Positions 1-41,406 of a stretch of DNA of 64,000 nucleotides are shown here, in pieces. The translations under genes were made by a program, and so were the position numbers. The notes under the pieces are model-generated. The model was not told the DNA's origin. It saw only the letters and a program-made list of their open reading frames with translations, and did not search any database. Position 1 is the stretch's first letter. The number at the start of each line of letters is the position of its first letter. Source of the DNA: Agrobacterium rubi TR3 = NBRC 13261 (GTDB lineage: Bacteria > Pseudomonadota > Alphaproteobacteria > Rhizobiales > Rhizobiaceae); NCBI RefSeq assembly GCF_000739935.1, contig NZ_BBJU01000024.1, positions 124,001-188,000 on the forward strand. The letters are read 5' to 3'.

Positions 1-515
1 ATTCGCCTGTTTATTTCCGCGCATGGACAAGGCTCCGAAACCGTCCTCTTTTCCAAAGGCTGCACTCAGGGAAGATCGGCTCAATTGATATCCCTTTGCA
101 TTTTTTAGTTCAGTGCAGTCGACGTTGCATCACCGTGTTGCACCAGATCGCAACCAGAGGGGTGGGGCCGGATAGGTAATGCTTTCTAACCTAGGCGTTT
201 TAGGCCGCAGCGTGAAACCGGAAAAACCGCTGCGTCTACCATCCCTATCACGTCCGGTTGACACGGCCCCTACAGACGAACGTAGGGTCGGACGTTTTCA
301 GAAGGATTTCAGAAACGCCGGCGAAAGCTTCATTTGAAACAAATGGGGCCGTACATTCGAGACCTGATGTCCCTTCAGAATTTGTGAGGGAAGTGATACG
401 GGATCAAACAGCATTCGCGTCATGGGGCGGTTCAACTAAAGACGTCCCCAAAAGTCCCGTCAGCGGCAAGACGATGCGATGTGTCAACTTACAACAGCGC
501 GGTGGATCCAGGAAA
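1..515. other. Left-edge stretch without a supported gene
   Basis: No reading frame here looks like a recognised protein. A plus-strand frame is open from the window edge for about 36 codons and then stops. A second frame of 89 codons (258..527) has only a TTG start, no convincing ribosome site, and overlaps the end of virF. Both could be remnants of vir-region genes. I see no clear hairpin or repeat. Confidence 0.4.
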
Positions 516-24920: not shown

Positions 24921-26186
24921 TTATGTGTTGAAAGCCGTGACGACGGGTCGCCCGAAGAGTTTCGCCCAGGCGATCACGCCTGCTTGTTGGATGGCGACGA
25001 TCGACGTTCCCTCGGTCCACCATCCGTTGCCCGTGGCGACGATGGCGGCGGGGGAAAACAGCATCGAGTGCAGTATGGGCCAGACGATGAGCTGCTCGTA
25101 GCAGATCAGCGGCGCGATCCTCGTGCCAGCGAGATCCACGGCCGGGTTGGCGAAGAAATGCGCTTGAGCGCCACCGCCCTGCCCGGTCCATTGCAACCAT
25201 GGCTGCCACATCGATACCGGGATCGGCATGCGCTCGCGATAGAGGATCCGTGCTTCACCCTCCGAGACCGTCACCATGACGTTGTCGTAGCCGCCCGGAT
25301 CGATGACGGCCGCGCCGGCGATCACGGTGACGTCCGCCCCTCGCAAGCCCGCCTGCCAAAGCCGTGCGACAGTCGGGGTCCATAAGCCGAGGGCGCTTTC
25401 GGGAAGAACGATGACACGGGTTTCCGCTCCTGCCGCCGCGCGCACCGTTGCGATCAGGTCACGGTGATGGTCAAGCGAACCATCACGTCCAAGCGTTTGA
25501 CCCTGTTCGAGGTCGACGCCTTTCCATCCATCCGGTAGGACAGGTTGCGTCCACGTAGCGGCGGACCAGAACCAGAAGCCTCCCAGGGCAATGGCAGCAG
25601 CCGGCCAGTATCGCGATGTCATCATCGCGAGGCCGGCTGTGGTCGCACCCAGCCCCCACCATCCAAAGCCGGGAAACAGAATGCCCGCTGCGGTCAGTGG
25701 ATGCGCCCACCCGGTGATGCCGAAGGGCGGCAGCCCCATCAGCACCGCGGCCGCAAGGTAGCGCACCGGCTTTCCCCAACCCAGAGCGCCCCTTCCCGGG
25801 AGCCTCTTTTGCAAGCGCGCGGGCCAGAACGCCGCATGCACGGCGACAAAGCCGGCCGAGGCCGCCAGCCATAGCAGGAGGCCGGGCCAGAAATCGGCGG
25901 CGTAGAAGTTCGCCACACCCTGCGGCAGGCCGCGCGAGGCGGTGAGGAAGTACCCGGCAGACACCGCGCCCGCAACCAGTCGTGATGGAGATTGCGCCCA
26001 TAGCAACGGAAAGAGCATGGCTGTCGGAAGAAGGAGGGCCTCGCCGCTCCAGCCGACCGCTCCGACGGCGATCGAAAGCAGGATCAGGAGCGCCACACGC
26101 CAGCGGTCACGGGTCAAACGTGAACACCGGCCGCGCCTGACCGAGAAGGCCGGATGCCGGGATCGGCCCAAAATATCGTGAATCAT
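24921..26186 (-). CDS. traB: Conjugal transfer protein TraB
   Basis: This 421-residue protein has several N-terminal membrane helices and a C-terminal carbon-nitrogen-hydrolase-like domain related to apolipoprotein N-acyltransferases. Landmarks are [14 protein letters not shown] (Glu) and [13 protein letters not shown] (Cys). The segment with the expected catalytic Lys reads [12 protein letters not shown], so the Lys may be replaced. I chose ATG 26186; the frame is open further up only because it overlaps traF. TraB stimulates Ti plasmid transfer but is not essential in published work. Confidence 0.88.
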
Positions 26187-26637
26187 AGGAGCTCGCAAAG
26201 GATGAGTGAAGAAAGAGATGGCCGGGTGGCACGACGCCGCCGGGATAGGGATGGATCGCCCTGCCGGCACCATCCGTCGCCCGCACAGCGGATGCGGGTA
26301 CCGGGCGGCCGTCGATGATGACCTCGCCGGCGATCTCGACCCGGTCGCCGGGAAGAGCGACAATGGTCTTGATCAGCGGCGCAAAACCGCCCCTGCAAAG
26401 CCCGCGGTGGAGATATCCGCGCTCTAGCGCCTCGATGAACGGCGCGTTCGACGGCGGGCAGATGAACACCAGATCCCCGACCTCAGGGGAGCGGTTCAAT
26501 GCCTCGATGCGCCAGAGCCCGAGCGGCTCGCTTGGTGTTAGGTTCAGGCGATAGCCGCCGACCGCGGCGACGACCGATTCGCAGAGAATGACGGTCACAG
26601 AGGCACGGATCAGGATGATCGCCCGGCGCGGCGTCAT
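26107..26637 (-). CDS. traF: TraF, S26-family pilin-maturation peptidase
   Basis: This 176-residue protein has one N-terminal membrane helix. The signal-peptidase-like active site shows [12 protein letters not shown] (Ser) and [17 protein letters not shown] (Lys with the GDxV motif). RP4 TraF and its Ti relatives cyclise or process the T-pilin. It overlaps traA by 4 nt (ATGA) and traB by 80 nt. Confidence 0.9.
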
Positions 26638-29600
26638 TGCTTGATCACCGGTGTCTGGCGCTGCGATAGCCGCAGGTCCTCGACCTGCCTCAAGGTCGCG
26701 GCGGTGCGCTCGTGGGCAGCGAGTTGCTGGGCGGTGCGCATCACCGGCCATGCCTCGGCCAGGTGCTCCTTCTCTTGGGGCTGGAGCCCCTTGGCGAGCT
26801 GCTCGAACAGCCGCCCGGACGGTTCGCGCGCGGCGTTCGGCAGCAGGCTGCGTTCACCGAAGCGTTCCGATACAGCCTTGTTGAATCCGTCGATTTCGAG
26901 CTTGGCCTCCTTGTCGCTGACCGCATATCCGAGTGCTGCGGGAAGGTCGTTGCGGTCGATCGCATCGCGCACCCGTTCGAGCACCGTGCGGGCGGACGGC
27001 GACAGTGCCGGAATGTCGATCGAGACGCGATGCCGGATTGCCCTCTCCTCCGTTTCAAGGCGCTGCATGGCGTTCGTTCGCATCTGAAGATAACGTTCGA
27101 GGTCACGCGAAAGCGCCGGCGCATTGACGTGTGCAATATCGCGGTCCTCCTTCTCCACGCGGCTGGCGAACAGGCCGGTCTTGCCTTTGAGCGCTCCAAA
27201 ACTCTCCGGCTCGTTCGCGATCTTCGCGAGCGTGGATTTCGCAGTCGCCGGATCCTTCAACGCCGCGTCGACATCGACCGCGCGGAAGGCGGCTTCGGGC
27301 TGGGCGTAGATCAGATGAAAACGGGAGGAGACTTCCTCCCATTGCTTCTTCAGACCGGGATCGGCGGCGAGCTTGTCCTCGACCGCCTGGTCGAGGGATT
27401 TCGGATGAATGGTGATGCCGGCAACCATCGGCCTGACCTCCTTCATGTTGCTGGAAAGCGATTGTTGCTGCTGAGTGCTGGAAACGAGACCGAGCTTGCC
27501 GCCGATGGCGAGCAGCCGGCTTCCGAGACGGGCAAGCCGCTGTTTCTGCCGGACCGTCCAGTCGAGCCGGTCGCGCATCATGGTCCGGGCGACGTTCATG
27601 AGGCGCAGGCCATGCGTGTCGGCGAAGCGGAGTGCCGCGCGATAGAAGCTGGCGTTCTCGTAGTCGAGCGTCGTTTCCTTCGCTGCGTCGCGCGACATGC
27701 GTTCCGTCATCCGCGACAGCGCCAGCTCGCGGATGTCGACGACCTTCCAGGTATGGCGCTTGACCTTCTTGCCGTCGGGAAGACGGACCATTTCGGAACC
27801 CTTGTGGTCGAGGCCGATGCGGTCGCCGATCTGAGGCGCCGCCTCTGCCATCGCGCGCTTCAGGTCGACGCCCCAGATGGTGTTCTGCTTCCCCTCGCCG
27901 GTTTCGAGCGTGACGAAATAGCTGTCGTGGTTCTCGGGCTTGTTCTCGTAGGGAGCCTCTCCGTGATCGACGAGAACGCCGCCGCGGTTGGTGAACTCGT
28001 TCATGCCGACATAGAGCCGGGCTGCATCACGATGACGGGTGAGCGCGACATAGGTCAGATGGCGGTCCATCGTGCCGGAGGCGAGCACCCTGACGACGTC
28101 GACCGTCGCGCCCTGCGATTTGTGGATGGTGGTCGCATAGCCATGATCGACATTGGCGTAGAGATGCTGATCGACCGTCACCTGGCGGCGATCCTCCCCT
28201 TCGCCAATCTCGGCGACAAACCTGCCGGGTGCGGCTTCGACCACCTTCGCCAGCATGCCGTTCTTGACGCCGAGCGATCCCTCGTTCTTCAGGAAGACGA
28301 TCCGGTCGCCGGCGTCGAAGCGACGCTCGCCCTCTTCTGTCCGGAAGGCGAAGCCCTCGCCGACGAGACCGCGCCCGACCAGCCTTTCGCGGGCGAGTTC
28401 GTTGAGTGCGCGCACGTCGAGTCGTCGATGGGCGAGAATGAGAGAAGACCTCGCCGGATCGTAGTCGCGGTTCCAGTCTTCGATCAGCGAGGCTATGGCC
28501 TCGTCCTTCGACCAGTGCGAATGGATCAGGTTCGCGCGGTCATAGGCTGCGAGCGCCGACCCGACTTGACGGTGGGCAAGATCGACCGAGGCGCGACGCA
28601 TCCACGCCTCGCGCTGACGATAGATCGTGCCAAGTTCGGCATAGCCGATGCGGTCGGTGATCGCGCGGAATGCGGCGCCCGCTTCGATCGGCTGGAGCTG
28701 ATCGGGATCACCGACCAGCACCAGCTTGGCCCCGGCCTCGGTCGCTGCCTGGACAAGCATCGCCATCTGCCGCGACGACACCATGCCCGCCTCATCCAGC
28801 ACCATGACGGTCCTGTCGTCGAGGCGGTCACGCTCCTGCTGCCAGCGTAGTTCCCACGACGACAGCGTGCGCGCGATGATGCCGGCCTCTTTCTCCAGAC
28901 CCTCCGCCGCCTTGCCAGCAAGCGCTGCGCCCACGACGCGATATCCGGCGGCTTCCCATGTCTCGCGGGCCGCTTTCATCATTGTGGTCTTGCCCGCTCC
29001 GGCACGGCCAACGACGGCGGCTATGCGATTGGCGCCGGCGATATGCGCAAGCGCTGTCCGCTGTTCCTGCGACAGCCGGTCGTGGCGCGCGAAGGTCGCG
29101 TCGAGAACGGCCTTGCCGATACCATGCGAGGAGCGTCGGTCAAGCCACATCGCGCTCCGGGCCATCGTCGCTTCGAGGCGGATCAGCTCGTGCGTCGTGA
29201 ACTTCGACGGCTCGCGCTTGCCGGTTGCCAACGAGATCCGCTCGCGCTCCAGCCGCAGCACTTGCCCACTCTGCATGATGCGCGCCATCATGTTGCGGAA
29301 CAGGCCCGCATCGTCGATATAGCGATGCAGGATTTTGGCGACATCGCGCTCGTCGAAGACGCTCTTCTCGCGGGTGATGAGATCCAGCACGAGTTCGGGA
29401 TTCTCCCGGATGCGGCGGGCATTTTCCTCGCGCCGCTCCTCGTTGAGCTCAAGGCGTTCGAGCTCGGCTTTGCGTCCCTCCCCTTCGGCCTTACGCTCGA
29501 TCGCCTTGGCGCCGACGCCGAGATGAATGGTCGGCACCAGATCGATACCCTGCTTCTCGTAGGATCGCCCGTCGACGCGCAAATTGATGCCGTTGAGCGC

Positions 29601-30218
29601 CAGGTGATGGTTCATCCGTTCGAACCAGGCGTCGCGAAACGCGTTGAAGTCGTCCGTTCCGCCGGCCCATAGCTCATAGACGATCTTCCCGGCTTTCGTC
29701 CGCAGAGGTTCGCCCTCCTCGCCGATCACCGCGACCTTCTTCGCGCCAAAACCGTATTCGGTCAGCGGCCGCAGTGTCGTCATCAGGTGGATGTGCGGAT
29801 TGCCGGGATTGTCGTGATAAACCCAGTCGGCAACCATCCCTCTGGAGAGAATGTGCTTTTCCACGAAGTCACGGACGAGCGCGATATTCTGCTCGGCTGT
29901 GAGCTCCAGCGGCAGCGCCACCGTCAGGTCCTTGGCGAGCTGGGCGTCGATCCGCTTCTCGAAAGCCTCGACCCTGTTCCAGAAGGCCTCCGAAGCGCCG
30001 GCGACAGAGCGGTCGGCGATCAGCATCCGGACCCATTTCGGCGCATGGTCCGGCAAAAGGAACTCTTCGTGAAGGAGCCCAACCTTGCGGGTGTAGTCGA
30101 TGGTGCGCGCCTCACGCTCGTAGTGCATCTTCGCACAGTGCCGGTAGGCCGCCGACAGCACCGCGCTGCGGCCGTCGCCGCGGCTGACGATGCTGGCTGA
30201 GAAGTGGGCGATGGCCAC
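26634..30218 (-). CDS. traA: TraA, conjugative relaxase with helicase domain
   Basis: This 1,194-residue protein combines an N-terminal MobA/MobL relaxase ([33 protein letters not shown] with the His-x-His metal site) and a RecD/TraI-type helicase (Walker [14 protein letters not shown], Walker [28 protein letters not shown]). A long helical C-terminal region follows. It nicks oriT and pilots and unwinds the transferred strand. The start lies 80 bp from the putative nic. It leads the traAFBH transcript, presumably activated from the tra box at 30383-30400. Confidence 0.95.
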
Positions 30219-30298: not shown

Positions 30299-30328
30299 CG
30301 TCGCGCCAGCGACGTATAATTGCGCCCT
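30299..30328. other. oriT: oriT nic region with adjacent inverted repeat
   Basis: A 6-bp inverted repeat CGTCGC-GCCA-GCGACG (30299-30314) is followed by TAATTGCGCCCT (30317-30328). The latter differs at one position from the RSF1010-type nic core TAAGTGCGCCCT, with the same order of inverted repeat then nic. Ti oriT is known to belong to this type. It lies between the divergent traA and traC, as expected. Confidence 0.82.
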
Positions 30329-30382
30329 TGGATCCGCTCCTTCGGAACGGCGGGATCATCTTCCAAAGTGTCGGCTTTGCCG

Positions 30383-33447: not shown

Positions 33448-33726
33448 AATCACCAATGAGCGACGCCGATCTCCCGGAGCTTTAAGCCGGCCGCAGGCCG
33501 CACCCGGGAGAGGGATAGGGGTTTGGGGAAAGGGTGGAGGGAACCGTCCCCTTTCCCCATGGGAGGGTGTTTGAGGGAGGGGCTTGCCCTTCCCTCATGG
33601 GGTGAGCGGCGAGAGGGGCGGCGCAGCCCCCCTTTCGTTAGCCATGCCGGCCGGTCGATCCGGCTGACGAGGCTCGCAGACAGGGATACGGACGAAAGGT
33701 GGCACCACCACCTTTCGTCCTCGACA
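33448..33726. other. Hairpin-rich intergenic region
   Basis: Three strong stem-loops lie in a row. 33525-33558 has 10-bp arms GGGGAAAGGG/CCCTTTCCCC. 33572-33597 is TGAGGGA-GGGC-TT-GCCC-TCCCTCA, with one mismatch. 33690-33720 has perfect 13-bp arms. The first two have no T-tract. No gene was found. Confidence 0.65.
33690..33720. terminator. Strong 13-bp stem-loop between convergent genes
   Basis: GGACGAAAGGTGG pairs perfectly with CCACCTTTCGTCC around a 5-nt loop. It lies 7 nt past the stop of the minus-strand gene and downstream of the traCDG transcript. There is no T-run, so it may be a bidirectional hairpin or RNA-stabilising element rather than a classical terminator. Confidence 0.5.
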
Positions 33727-34053
33727 TTAATCGGGGCTAACGTTGAGTTCACGGATCACCGTGTCGATGCGCCAGTCGCCAATCTCGGTTCGTCGCTGGG
33801 CAACCAGAATATCGACGGCCGTTTCGTTCGCCTCGATAGCACTGATCGCCGCGTCCATCGCATCCCATGGACCGAGGTTTTCGACAGGGATGACGTCGCC
33901 GTCATCGTCATAGGCGCCTGAGATGTACATTGGCGCGCGCGTGACGCGGTCATGTGCACGCTCGGCTTCTCGAATCAACCGAAAACCCTCTTCCCGCTGA
34001 CGCCAGTATTCCGGGCTGCCACCATCGATGTATTTGATTTTCTGCTCTGTCAT
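33727..34053 (-). CDS. Conserved plasmid protein of unknown function (108 aa)
   Basis: The protein is acidic, begins MTEQKIKYIDGGSPEYWRQR and has no membrane segment. The RBS is AAAGGAG just before the start. Between residues 60 and 95 it reads GPWDAMDAAISAIEANETAV. I do not recognise a domain. Its leader carries structured element A (34124-34195). Confidence 0.62.
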   Translation of the reverse strand: MTEQKIKYIDGGSPEYWRQREEGFRLIREAERAHDRVTRAPMYISGAYDDDGDVIPVENLGPWDAMDAAISAIEANETAVDILVAQRRTEIGDWRIDTVIRELNVSPD

Positions 34054-34484
34054 GACAATCTCCTTTCGTCTTTCTGACGCAAGGAGGCTGCGCCGTAGAC
34101 GCGAGGGGTCAGGGATCGCATTGCGACCGCCGGAGGCGGCGAGTGGAGGAGCCGATTTGCAAGAGCCGTCGCGGACGGCGGCTGCAAATTGGAGGTGCTA
34201 CGACGTCCTTGACGCCGGAGTGGCGGGTGCAAAATACAAAGTCAGAGAGAAGAGAGACCCGCGCCTGCAGGGCGCGTCCGTCTGCCGGTAGAACCGGCCG
34301 CGAGAGGATCGCAACCGGATGGCCGAAACCGCTTGCGGGTTCGGTGCGCTTGCGCATAGAGCCATGCGTTGAAGCCGCCTCGCCCAGTTCCCTGTCTGAA
34401 ATCATCACGGCGATGAATCGGTGACACCGGATCGATTCAGATAACTCGTTGGACGCTGCTTGCCGAGATAGCGACAATGAGGGC
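34054..34484. other. Intergenic region with structured element A
   Basis: About 430 bp without a supported gene. It contains the promoter and leader of the minus-strand gene at 33727-34053, with the hairpin element at 34155-34189. The right half has only unconvincing open frames. Confidence 0.45.
34124..34195 (-). repeat. Structured leader element, copy A
   Basis: A ~72-nt sequence shared with 35447-35518. Its core is a 35-nt hairpin (34155-34189) with outer stem ATTTGC/GCAAAT and inner stem GCCGTC-CGC-GACGGC. Next to it lies a GCCGCC-TCC-GGCGGT hairpin conserved in both copies. Both copies precede a minus-strand gene. Confidence 0.7.
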
Positions 34485-34742
34485 ATGGAAGACAAGGAGA
34501 CATGCCCGGTTCATCTTCACCGCATCGAGACGGCGCAGAACATGCGACGCTTCTACATTCTGGCGATCCAGCCGACACTGTTCGGCGGGGCTTCGGTCAT
34601 CCGCAACTGGGGCCGGATCGGATCGGGCGGCCAGACGATGATGCAGACCTTCGATCATCCGGATGATGCGAACACAGCACTCTCCTGTCTCGAACGAACG
34701 AAGAGACGACGTGGCTATCGGGACGCGGGCAACACCGAATAG
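34485..34742 (+). CDS. WGR-domain protein
   Basis: This 85-residue protein is almost entirely a WGR domain (RFYILAIQPTLFGGASVI, then NWGRIGSGGQ). WGR domains bind DNA or nucleic-acid enzymes and occur as small stand-alone proteins on rhizobial plasmids. ATG 34485 is chosen over a TTG at 34449. The role is unknown. Confidence 0.8.
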   Translation: MEDKETCPVHLHRIETAQNMRRFYILAIQPTLFGGASVIRNWGRIGSGGQTMMQTFDHPDDANTALSCLERTKRRRGYRDAGNTE

Positions 34743-34880
34743 CCGGTTTCAATCGACCGCATTGCTGCATTTCCTGTGGCTTACGCGCTCCTTCCGGGGA
34801 TTCCTGCCTTTCTGCCCCTTTCTTCGCCACATCTTCATTGCCAAAGCTGAGGGACCGAAACAACATGAGGAATGTCCAAT

Positions 34881-35159
34881 ATGACCACGACCAACGAAAT
34901 CGCCGACAAGATCGCAGCCGAACAGAGCCTGACCAAGGCGCAGGCCAAGACGATCGTCGAGAGCGTCTTCAAGCAGATCACCGACGCGGCGCTTGCTGGC
35001 GCAGAAACGTCGATCCCATCATTTGGAAAGTTCAAGCTGAAGGACACTCCGGAGCGCGAGGGACGCAATCCGGCGACGGGTGCTACGATCAAGATCGCGG
35101 CATCGAAGAAGCTGACCTTTACGCCCGGCAAAGCGGTCAAGGACGCACTGAACGGCTGA
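34881..35159 (+). CDS. HU/IHF-family DNA-binding protein
   Basis: This 92-residue histone-like protein starts TTTNEIADKIAAEQSLTKAQ and has the HU arm region IPSFGKFKLKDTPEREGRNP with the ATGATIKIAASKKLTFTPGK tail. ATG 34881 is 10 nt after GAGG; the ATG at 34872 is too close. HU-like proteins bend DNA and may assist plasmid replication, partition or transfer. Confidence 0.9.
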   Translation: MTTTNEIADKIAAEQSLTKAQAKTIVESVFKQITDAALAGAETSIPSFGKFKLKDTPEREGRNPATGATIKIAASKKLTFTPGKAVKDALNG

Positions 35160-35194
35160 AGCGACCACGCCGCCGGAAACGGCAGCATGATGGA

Positions 35195-35214
35195 AGCCTC
35201 CTAGAAAGGAGGCT
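35195..35214. terminator. Perfect 8-bp hairpin between convergent genes
   Basis: AGCCTCCT-AGAA-AGGAGGCT lies between the HU gene (plus) and the small minus-strand gene whose stop codon is inside the stem. There is no T-tract, so termination is inferred from position only. Confidence 0.5.
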
Positions 35215-35371
35215 CCGCGCTGATGCGTCCGTCCTGTTCGGCCTCGATCGTTGCAAGCTCCGCCTGTACCATCTCCAGCTCCGCCGCAATCCGGCGGCGC
35301 TCGGCCGGATCGCAGGCATTCCTGAATTCGGCCCGAAGCTCTTCGCGCTGAATTTCGAGAGAAATCGTCAT
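35201..35371 (-). CDS. Small conserved helical protein (56 aa)
   Basis: The frame reads MTISLEIQREELRAEFRNAC, then DPAERRRIAAELEMVQAELA, and ends EPPF. The protein is strongly helical and charged, likely a short coiled coil. An AAGGAG lies 9-14 nt before the ATG. Codon use and the structured leader element upstream (copy B) support it as real. Function unknown. Confidence 0.65.
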   Translation of the reverse strand: MTISLEIQREELRAEFRNACDPAERRRIAAELEMVQAELATIEAEQDGRISAEPPF

Positions 35372-35655
35372 CGTCGTCTCCTTGACGTTTGTGAAAGACG
35401 ACGCCGCGCGTCATGGCGGAGCGGAGGGGTCCAGCATCGCGGGACGCGACCGCCGGAGGCGGCGAGGGGAGGAACCGATTTGCGGGAGCCGCCATAGGCG
35501 GAAGGAGCAAATTGGAGGCGCCGCTCGTGCTGGACGCCTTCGTTTCGCCATGGCACCCTTGGACGAACTGAGCAGCCCACAACTCCTCGTATGGCACCGG
35601 AAAAGCCGGAAGCAGGCTCGATGCCTGCGCCCGGCTCTCCCTCGCGACACGAAAA
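35372..35655. other. Intergenic region with structured element B
   Basis: This contains the leader of the 56-codon gene, including the second copy of the structured element, and then sequence without a supported gene up to the DUF736 terminator. Confidence 0.45.
35447..35518 (-). repeat. Structured leader element, copy B
   Basis: Second copy of the element at 34124-34195. The hairpin core is 35478-35512, again 35 nt, with the same outer stem ATTTGC/GCAAAT but a different inner stem, CCGCC-TAT-GGCGG. The pairing is kept although the bases differ. Confidence 0.7.
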
Positions 35656-35679
35656 GAGCCCCGCCTTTCGGCGGAGCTC
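35656..35679 (-). terminator. Rho-independent terminator of DUF736 copy 1
   Basis: On the minus strand the stem GAGCTCCGCC-GAAA-GGCGGGGCTC (one G-T pair) is followed by TTTTC, 10 nt after the DUF736 stop. Confidence 0.82.
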
Positions 35680-35689
35680 GTTGCGGTGA

Positions 35690-36007
35690 TCAGGCCTCCC
35701 GCTTCGGGCGGTTCCAGATGAGGGCGTATTCGCCTTCCTTCTCGCCCGGCCAAAGGGCTGCTGTGATCGGGGCATTGAAGCTGGGGTCGTCGAGCTTGAC
35801 GGAGATGAAGGGCTCGCCATCGTTGGAGACCTTGTTCCAACCCGCGCCGACCTCGACGCCGTTGCCGGCGGTGATGCGGAAGTCCGGAGCGTCGCGCGAG
35901 ACGCGCTCGATGGGGTTCAGGCGGGCCTTCATGCTGACTGTGAGCGTGCGCACGTTGCCGATGATGGAGTTGTTGCCGTTGGTGTTGAATTCGCCGATGA
36001 CTGCCAT
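35690..36007 (-). CDS. DUF736-family protein, copy 1
   Basis: This 105-residue protein of the DUF736 family is common on alphaproteobacterial plasmids, often beside ArdC and ParB-like genes. It starts MAVIGEFNTNGNNSIIGNVR and ends RPKREA. ATG 36007 is chosen because AAAAGGA lies upstream and family members start MAxIG; the frame is open further up but without support. It differs from copy 2 at one residue (NTNG versus TTNG). Function is unknown. Confidence 0.88.
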   Translation of the reverse strand: MAVIGEFNTNGNNSIIGNVRTLTVSMKARLNPIERVSRDAPDFRITAGNGVEVGAGWNKVSNDGEPFISVKLDDPSFNAPITAALWPGEKEGEYALIWNRPKREA

Positions 36008-36016
36008 TGTCGTGCT

Positions 36017-36123
36017 CCTTTTCCGGTTTGCTCGGGCCGCGCCCATCGCGTCCTCGATGACGGTGTTAAGACCGACGGCGATCGACGTCGCACCGCTGGC
36101 GGCCGGAACGAAGTGGAGGACGG
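36017..36123 (-). promoter_or_regulatory. Shared leader blocks upstream of DUF736 copy 1
   Basis: Three blocks recur in other leaders: CCTTTTCCGGTTTGCTCG (36017-36034, also before 40735 and, with small changes, 44184), GGCCGCGCCCATCGCG (36035-36050, also 40763 and 43293) and GGCCGGAACG-AGTGGAGGACGG (36101-36123, also before ArdC at 43364-43387). Confidence 0.55.
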
Positions 36124-36153
36124 CCGGGAGCGGCTTTCTTGGCCCGCGAGGAA

Positions 36154-36169
36154 TGCAAACCTGTTTGCA
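36154..36169. promoter_or_regulatory. Palindrome upstream of DUF736 copy 1
   Basis: TGCAAAC-CT-GTTTGCA is a perfect palindrome with 7-bp arms, 147 bp upstream of the gene. In copy 2 the same site is TGCGAAC-CT-GTTCGCA, changed at both arms so pairing is kept. A protein-binding operator is the simplest reading. Confidence 0.6.
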
Positions 36170-36474
36170 GGGGAAGAAAGTCGCGTATGGCCGTTGCGGC
36201 CAAGGCGATCGAGACGAAGGCGTCCTTCGGTCACACCAGATCCATCGAGGTCTGCGTGGGTGTGGCCAGCCAGAACCGGATTGCGCACGACATGCCGAGA
36301 AACCAATCGTTGAACTCACTACCAGCACGCCGCTGGCACAATCGTTTTCGGCACCCTGCTCACACCACGTCACGGCTGCGGACCTGCCGTTCCTTCGACG
36401 CCATCGCCGATGGGTGCGTCTGAACTACCTGTCGTTCGACAGTCGAGCGATGCCGAGACGGCTCTGACTCGACG

Positions 36475-40735: not shown

Positions 40736-41406
40736 TGTCGTGTTCCTTTTCCGGTTTGCTCGGGCCGCGCCCATCGCGTCCTCGATGACGGTGTTAAGAC
40801 CGACGGCGATCGACGCCGCACCGCTGGCGGCCGGAACGAAGTGGAGGACGGCCGGGAGCGGCTTTCTTGGCCCGCGAGGAATGCGAACCTGTTCGCAGGG
40901 GAAGAAAGTTGCGTATGGCCGTTGCGGCCAAGGCGATCGAGACGAAGGCGTCCTTCGGTCACAACAGATTCATCGAGGTCTGCGTGGGTGTGGCCTGTCC
41001 GAACCGGATCGACCACGACATGCCGCGAGACCAATCGTTGAACTCACCACCAGCACGCCGCTGGCACAATCGTTTTCGGGACCATGCTCACACCACGTCA
41101 CGGCTGCGGACCTGCCGTTCCCTTCGACGCCATCGCCGATGGGTGCGTCTGCATTACCGACCGTTCGACATCAGAGCCATCTTCGACTGGATGGTGTCTC
41201 CTCCCAACCGGCAAGGGCCTCCGCTATGCTGCGATCCCCCTTGCCCTCAGCGCCCCACACCGCAACGGCTGGTCGGCATGGAACGTGTCCCCCACTTCAG
41301 AAACTGACTGGGCCGGCGTCTTTCACGGCAGAGTTCCACCATATGGCGGTGCCTCTTCCGCTCCAAATGGAGCGGTCAGCCGTTACCGCAGCGCCGGAAG
41401 GCTGCC
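40736..41406. other. DUF736 copy 2 upstream region and unassigned DNA
   Basis: Up to 41151 this is the repeated upstream region. The remaining ~250 bp contains open frames without recognisable protein and no clear regulatory site. Confidence 0.4.
40882..40897. promoter_or_regulatory. Palindrome upstream of DUF736 copy 2
   Basis: TGCGAAC-CT-GTTCGCA, the counterpart of 36154-36169, with matching changes in both arms. Confidence 0.6.

Follow-up and report, generated by a model that had tools for sequence, protein, structure and literature searches.

Candidate single-strand promoters capped by a four-way junction in conjugative plasmids of Alphaproteobacteria

The window considered here, a stretch of 64,000 nucleotides from contig NZ_BBJU01000024.1 of Agrobacterium rubi TR3, belongs to a Ti-type plasmid. 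The minus-strand traA gene and a predicted origin of transfer (oriT) are followed by traC-traG on the plus strand and then by WGR, HU and DUF736 genes and small minus-strand open reading frames (ORFs). Two of these small ORFs are preceded by copies of the same structured element. A sequence-only reading of this DNA had described a duplicated hairpin of equal 35-nt length with different inner stems, and had offered two options for its role, a cis-regulatory RNA and a single-strand DNA signal. The question is which strand holds the structure and what it does there. The plus strand, on which the structure lies, is predicted to be the one transferred and serves as the template of the small genes; the evidence therefore favours folded single-stranded DNA acting as a promoter, that is, the second option. 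Probably, each copy acts as a promoter solely while the transferred plasmid strand is single-stranded DNA.

Both copies (76 nt, 82% identical in a pairwise comparison) are present where they had been placed, with hairpins ATTTGC...GCAAAT of the same length at 34155-34189 and 35478-35512 and with inner stems GCCGTC/GACGGC and CCGCC/GGCGG, respectively. The unit extends beyond what had been noticed: a four-way junction includes the hairpin as one of its arms, and the flanks pair as well. The junction is formed by stem P1, hairpin A (HpA), hairpin B (HpB) and a long arm, the part already described, in which P3 is followed by a purine internal loop and by H1, whose tip varies. Eight copies, both window copies among them, were aligned, the structure was written on the plus strand, and a covariance model, R1, was built. 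The features of the two copies are as follows.

34106 to 34216, plus (predicted transferred) strand: copy 1, four-way-junction element (R1 110.6 bits; DNA fold); with the flanking helix P0, about 34073-34246.
34109 to 34115, plus: copy 1, P1 5' arm TCAGGGA, partner TCCTTGA at 34206-34212; predicted template side of the -35 box.
34116 to 34126, plus: copy 1, hairpin A, TCGC ATT GCGA.
34127 to 34139, plus: copy 1, hairpin B, CCGCC GGA GGCGG, with a GNA triloop.
34140 to 34205, plus: copy 1, long arm with P3 (34140-34146/34198-34205), purine internal loop and H1 (34152-34160/34184-34192).
34165 to 34170 with 34174 to 34179, plus: copy 1, inner stem of the long arm, GCCGTC/GACGGC.
34208 to 34213, plus: copy 1, candidate -35 box CTTGAC in the P1 3' arm (non-template arm of the fold); not picked by a strict promoter scan.
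34230 to 34235, plus: copy 1, candidate -10 box CAAAAT, spacer 16 from CTTGAC and 15 from TTGACG; not picked by the strict scan.
34073 to 34078, plus: copy 1, P0 5' arm TCTGAC, partner GTCAGA at 34241-34246; closes the predicted promoter fold about 20 nt upstream of the start codon.
35427 to 35538, plus (predicted transferred) strand: copy 2, four-way-junction element (R1 106.4 bits).
35430 to 35436, plus: copy 2, P1 5' arm TCCAGCA, partner TGCTGGA at 35528-35534; a compensated form of TCAAGGA/TCCTTGA.
35437 to 35462, plus: copy 2, hairpins A (35437-35449, TCGCG GGA CGCGA) and B (35450-35462).
35463 to 35527, plus: copy 2, long arm with P3 (35463-35469/35520-35527), H1 (35475-35483/35507-35515) and an inner stem within 35488-35501.
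35413 to 35427, plus: copy 2, 5' side of the spacer helix in the predicted DNA fold, partner about 35537-35551; stops just short of the -10 box.
35530 to 35535, plus: copy 2, candidate -35 box CTGGAC, weaker than the family consensus.
35554 to 35559, plus: copy 2, candidate -10 box CACCCT, weak, with A2 and T6 kept.

Chance does not account for the two copies: apart from them, the best R1 match in the window scores 12.9 bits. A third, more diverged copy lies on another contig of the same genome (G000:C26:49231-49324, L124; 70 bits). Matches were found in 106 of 394 Rhizobiaceae genomes, in 17 of 397 genomes of the order sample, nine of these being Rhizobiaceae, and in seven of 289 genomes of the class sample, one being the window's own genome. 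The covariance-model search that had been suggested as a check returns homologues with paired changes. A blastn search with copy 2 and its flanks as the query gave 572 plasmid records, 508 of which are labelled Agrobacterium, Rhizobium or Sinorhizobium. Arrays of element and gene occur, mostly about 0.5-1.5 kb apart, with differing genes. At gathering scores, no Rfam family matches either copy in the window; five sub-threshold matches at 33700-36200 (up to E 5, among them BjrC68, 14.8 bits, 35646-35761) all lie outside 34106-34216 and 35427-35538. One plasmid stretch (L008, 1501-1544) contains the 3'-flank block only, TGAGCAG with neighbouring sequence, and R1 finds no element there.

The pairing was counted in 102 distinct copies from 109 R1 matches in 77 source sequences. 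Standard pairs occupy 95.2% of 3200 cells in an alignment fitted to R1, which favours the structure; pairing falls to 38-47% once the partners are slid by 1-3 columns. Two-sided changes are seen in 21 of the 32 pairs. Compensatory cells number 195, compared with 44.5 after shuffling, and none of 500 shuffles reached this number, which bears out the earlier claim that the structure is selected. The key pair of HpB is C-G in 58 copies and G-C in 35. The HpA stem was not found by the stem rule in 15 of the 102 copies, and HpB was not found in eight of the 87 then examined. The loops are 3 nt long in 59 of the 87 HpA stems (52 GNA) and in 71 of the 79 HpB stems (38 GNA). Such 3-nt GNA loops are of the DNA kind, and GCGAAGC, a DNA mini-hairpin type, is present in 20 of 102 copies. 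The purine internal loop exchanges A-G for G-A between its two sides in 90 of 94 copies. The same loop contains a non-canonical covariation of three positions (A,A,G or G,G,A; A2 alignment columns 50, 136, 143), which may reflect a base triple or contact with a protein. The z-scores of single-sequence DNA folds on the plus and minus strands, respectively, are -5.67 and -3.76 for window copy 2, and -3.04/-2.48, -5.71/-3.41, -4.88/-4.04, -0.99/-0.46, -1.97/-2.21 and -3.48/-0.45 for six others.

The strand on which the structure is kept can be read from the wobble pairs. A G.T wobble on one strand is A.C at the same position of the complement. On the plus strand, 209 cells are G.T and 38 are A.C, and 25 of the latter come from two outer pairs of P3 that are broken in one subtype. 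Parsimony gives 49 gains of G.T from Watson-Crick pairs and 16 gains of A.C (45 vs 13 without the three outer P3 pairs). Since a model permitting G.T could bias the count, it was repeated with folds in which G.T was forbidden. The single mismatches were then 66 G.T, 7 A.C and 256 other within the element, and 14 G.T, 2 A.C and 108 other in the flank stems. A scan for stems with one mismatch gave a G.T:A.C ratio of 169:42 against about 88:70 in shuffled sequences at the most informative of four settings, and a weaker lean in the same direction at the remaining three. The internal loop is purine-purine on the plus strand and pyrimidine-pyrimidine on the minus strand. In the mRNA sense, three positions are A.C in 38/102, 45/102 and 83/99 copies, whereas the reverse, G.U in the mRNA, occurs in 0, 1 and 0. 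Thus the mRNA-leader option of the sequence-only reading fails, as the wobbles are mostly G.T on the plus strand and rarely A.C, and as the mRNA-sense strand would hold A.C mismatches and a pyrimidine-pyrimidine loop. A conserved structure with G.U wobbles on the mRNA strand, as expected of a cis-regulatory RNA leader, was not observed.

The plus strand is also the predicted transferred one. Two features of the transfer region are relevant here.

30303 to 30330 (approximate), plus strand: predicted oriT nic core, CGTCGCGCCAGCGACG-TATAATTGCG/CCCTTGG.
26634 to 30218, minus strand: traA, relaxase/helicase with MobA_MobL and AAA_30 domains.

A nic-core motif (CGTCGC..GCGACG-TATAATTGCG/CCCTT) lies on the plus strand near 30321. 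The motif and its polarity are taken to be RSF1010-like; the plus strand is therefore predicted to be transferred, and within the leading region the two copies would come after 3.8 and 5.1 kb. Among 22 stretches searched, nine contain the motif, and in all nine the element is on the same strand as the nic core and downstream of it. Five further stretches, with a more distant TraA and no nic-core motif, have the same layout. The polarity and side seen in the window recur in 79 of 79 element matches at most 20 kb from a TraA match listed for that contig (62 contigs, among the 150 matches listed), and the median distance between element and TraA is 5.5 kb among the matches listed. The element and TraA occur together in 80 genomes (106 and 148 of 394, respectively; Fisher p 8e-21). 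Given this consistent polarity, the recipient is predicted to receive the structured strand first.

Candidate promoter boxes were found on the 3' side of the fold. They were scored in 126 copies, and the flank duplexes in 122 pairs. The 3' arm of P1, TCCTTGA, continues as CTTGA[C/G]G, an alphaproteobacterial -35 sequence. This box lies in the paired P1 stem; with TTGA[CG]G as the reference, a -10 hexamer [TC]AnnnT follows 15-18 nt further on. The best match to TATAAT has a mean of 3.66 of six positions against 2.19 in shuffled sequences. Both A2 and T6 are present in 115 of 126 copies (shuffled mean 17.3, maximum 29); at other places, the count reaches no more than 30 in the flank once the neighbouring offsets are set aside, and 37 within the leader. 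In the predicted DNA folds, five or six bases of the -35 box are paired in 109 of 126 copies, and at least three bases of the -10 box are unpaired in 92. The flanks form a duplex of -14.8 kcal/mol with their true partners and -10.9 with swapped ones on the plus strand, and of -12.0 and -9.8 kcal/mol on the complement. Beyond the -10 box, many copies are closed at a fixed place by helix P0 (e.g. TCAATGACG/CGTCATTGA, TCTATGAC/GTCATAGA). The longest P0 stem has a mean of 5.19 bp against 4.84 bp with swapped partners (0 of 200 swaps as high); the stems at this place occur upstream of the genes other than the 56-aa type, not in that type. In duplex DNA, the boxes face away from the gene.

The placement before small minus-strand genes, already noted in the window, recurs among the other copies. 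Of 102 copies, 90 have a start codon with a Shine-Dalgarno motif at 49-59 nt from the edge of the element; the remaining 12 comprise seven earlier in-frame start picks, one distance of 67 nt, and four copies without a start supported by a Shine-Dalgarno motif. The genes form several unrelated families. Their nine clusters overstate the number of families, as a cluster of six 46-aa ORFs probably represents the wrong frame of the LANR family. Only one of eight gene representatives (DUF2958) passes the Pfam cut-off. The genes downstream of the two window copies are as follows.

33727 to 34053, minus strand: 108-aa ORF downstream of copy 1, DGGSPEYWRQR family, without Pfam match up to E 0.1.
35201 to 35371, minus strand: 56-aa ORF downstream of copy 2, EELRAEL family, ATU_RS26615 in pTiC58, without Pfam match up to E 0.1.

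The leaders between element and start codon contain a second hairpin around the Shine-Dalgarno box (e.g. CCTTTCGT..ACGAAAGGAG, GATCTCC..GGAGATC; 34060-34086 and 35373-35402 in the window), with seemingly compensated changes among leaders, as judged by eye. Its 5' half overlaps the P0 arm in many copies, and the two would therefore be mutually exclusive. This hairpin might silence read-through mRNA. Competition of the Shine-Dalgarno box (TCAAGGAG) with P1 (TCAAGGA) was considered and dropped, since the box is unaltered in copies whose P1 has changed (window copy 2, L002). A switch of wobble polarity to the mRNA strand within the leader was not supported either, the leader mismatches being mixed.

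After the rules had been fixed, named genomes were scanned with a short pattern, giving 107 stretches, of which 80 were passed to the model; this yielded 31 matches, 21 of them distinct. The pattern fixed 17 element bases, and these positions are thus not independent in this set. Nearly all matches come from Sphingomonadales, including Sphingobium, Novosphingobium, Sphingomonas plasmid pIC081B, Rhizorhabdus and Porphyrobacter; there are also one Beijerinckiaceae metagenome-assembled genome and one record titled Rhizobiales bacterium 24-66-13. The 21 copies have 570 Watson-Crick, 55 G.T, 1 A.C and 26 other cells. A -10 box under the fixed rule is present in 13 of the 21 (shuffled mean 2.0, maximum 6), and the flank duplex is -20.9 against -15.7 with swapped partners (-19.5 against -14.6 on the complement). 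The first supported start codon is at 50-58 nt in 14 of 21 copies; the others are at 36 (three) and 69-73 (three), and one was not found. On seven contigs (L155, L167, L177, L204, L206, L211, L218; sphingomonads and the record titled Rhizobiales), two copies lie 615 bp apart and are alike between strains. This arrangement is a recently spread module.

The structure, its strand, its polarity relative to the relaxase gene, the spacing and the boxes come directly from these computations, and may combine into the following mechanism. During conjugation, the plus strand would enter the recipient with its 5' end first. The two half-sites, the 5' flank with the 5' arm of P1 and the 3' arm of P1 with the 3' flank, would then fold back together in the cell, capped by the four-way junction. 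The fold would offer a double-stranded -35 box within P1, followed by a base-paired spacer and a -10 box that is mostly unpaired, and host RNA polymerase could bind there. The 3' arm would be the non-template strand, and the 5' arm the template, running on single-stranded into the gene. Transcription would leave the hairpin at its base, with a predicted RNA start about 20-30 nt before the start codon, so that the Shine-Dalgarno site is included. Second-strand synthesis would pull the hairpin into ordinary duplex, with the boxes then facing away from the gene. As this conversion would reverse the orientation of the boxes relative to the gene, expression is predicted to be early and transient.

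This scheme resembles Frpo, the single-strand promoter of the F plasmid. Promoters of this type were tested on F and ColIb-P9, and Frpo folds into stem-loops with -10 and -35 boxes and is required for early, transient expression of leading genes, which is switched off by second-strand synthesis (PMC9849209). A BLAST survey counted 13,089 Frpo-homologous promoters in 6,006 conjugative elements; the terms MOBQ, Agrobacterium and rhizob do not occur in its main text (PMC11541004). The genes treated in PMC4294206 lie elsewhere. A literature search, with subscription journals and supplements outside its scope, found no single-strand promoter for Agrobacterium or rhizobia; the sole paper mentioning Frpo together with rhizobi describes an unrelated Neorhizobium isolate. 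Like Frpo and the ssi promoters of F and ColIb-P9, the new element lies in the leading region, on the transferred strand (by the assignment at the nic core taken over from RSF1010), has a stable, selected fold that would rebuild the -35 and -10 boxes with the template arm leading into the leading genes, and occurs in several copies before different genes. The boxes aimed at the leading gene are seen in the sequence and in the predicted fold. The F leading region also folds strongly on the transferred strand (z -6.48), its main predicted stem beginning 46 nt before the ssb start codon; for the new element, the distance from edge to start codon is 49-59 nt. On the other hand, the F stretch is an imperfect hairpin of about 320 nt, whereas the new element is a compact four-way-junction cap with short triloop hairpins, found in alphaproteobacterial hosts with a MOBQ-type TraA relaxase and before leading genes mostly without Pfam match. 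A search of the F leading region and six homologous stretches with R1 (cmsearch) gave no match up to E 10. The element therefore seems to work like Frpo, without detectable homology to it. Upstream position, multi-branch structure and covariation are also shared with the mRNA leaders and riboswitches of Rfam, but here the structure is on the non-coding strand and matches no Rfam family.

It is likely that alphaproteobacterial conjugative plasmids hold a DNA-promoter family of their own, with a four-way junction and a premelted -10 box and unrelated to Frpo in sequence. Placed before each of many uncharacterised leading genes, it would serve a programme for the early establishment of Ti, symbiosis and sphingomonad plasmids, with the leader hairpin perhaps silencing read-through mRNA.

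Several observations weigh against a single-strand promoter. The boxes were spotted by eye before they were scored on the 126 copies, and the later set is the sole fresh test; there, eight of 21 copies have no clear -10 box under the same rule, and the flank duplex gains about equally on the complement, so that it shows pairing, not strand. A strict E. coli-type sigma70 scan of both strands at 33900-35750 found no promoter and missed the boxes, and those of window copy 2 are weak (CTGGAC, CACCCT). Neither part of the method was borne out on a known case: the box scan found no boxes in Frpo of F, and the wobble test there, with eight close sequences only and G.T-free folding, did not reproduce the bias (23 GT and 37 AC cells). 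One of the seven folded copies (L006; z -0.99, -0.46) is no more stable than shuffles on either strand, and another (L007) folds slightly better on the minus strand (-1.97 on plus, -2.21 on minus). Polarity is reversed in two weak matches near TraA, both outside the 150 listed, namely G020 (48 bits, about 14 kb from TraA) and G071/L019:287-378 (37.6 bits). Near the start codon, mismatches have no clear strand preference. Finally, polarity alone cannot tell DNA from a plus-strand RNA; this choice is based on the loop type, the lack of a sensible plus-strand transcript and the promoter geometry.

Other explanations were considered. RSF1010 ssiA/ssiB and phage G4-type origins are folded single-stranded DNA recognised by host or plasmid enzymes, like the proposed element, but they prime DNA synthesis and are not known to be tied to start codons. 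One possibility is that the element is such a single-strand initiation (ssi) site, recruiting primase or polymerase for second-strand priming, with the nearness of genes incidental. The strand, the place and the multiple copies would be the same, and Masai and Arai (1997) in their title link Frpo to transcription as well as to primer RNA synthesis. This function is compatible with a promoter; priming alone, however, needs neither a fixed distance of 49-59 nt to the ATG of unrelated genes nor a -35/-10 geometry, and as the main role it is unlikely. Still less probable is an antisense or small RNA on the plus strand, with the boxes forming an ordinary duplex promoter that faces away from the gene, or with RNA coming from another promoter. 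Such an RNA would have the same strand asymmetry, and the boxes can be read in duplex DNA. However, the structure is upstream of the boxes rather than downstream, the strict scan has no promoter on either strand, the 3-nt GNA loops are of the DNA kind, and in eight of eight annotated copies the gene annotated next on the right runs convergently, on the minus strand, an exception being the plus-strand WGR ORF to the right of window copy 1. PMC3738593 (42 antisense RNAs and 4 small RNAs on the Ti plasmid) and PMC10469942 (170 antisense start sites in the Ti plasmid table rows) leave room for a transcript at this place.

A cis-regulatory leader of the minus-strand mRNA is very improbable. It would agree with the position before genes and with the compensated changes of the Shine-Dalgarno hairpin seen by eye, but it would place A.C mismatches in the mRNA at the three positions discussed above, and the later set stands at 55 to 1 for G.T on the plus strand. 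A recombination site of folded single-stranded DNA, similar to attC and shuffling cassettes of element and gene, would fit the arrays with different genes, but leaves the promoter boxes and the fixed spacing to the ATG unexplained and can hardly be entertained. The single-strand promoter thus remains the preferred reading, and the elements constitute a new alphaproteobacterial family of candidate promoters of this kind. If so, the same solution with a different fold operates in rhizobia, on their Ti and symbiosis plasmids, and on plasmids of sphingomonads, and the element would provide a sequence handle on the genes expressed first in a new host, most of them without known function. The analysis also suggests that the strand carrying the wobble pairs can serve as a general test for selection on single-stranded DNA.

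Two further observations concern the rest of the window. The upstream regions of two DUF736 genes (36008-36260 and 40737-41000) are nearly identical over at least 160 nt, a recent duplication separate from the element. Rfam matches elsewhere in the window are Atu_Ti1 and Atu_At1, at 25549-25640 (plus strand) and 165-273 (minus strand), respectively.

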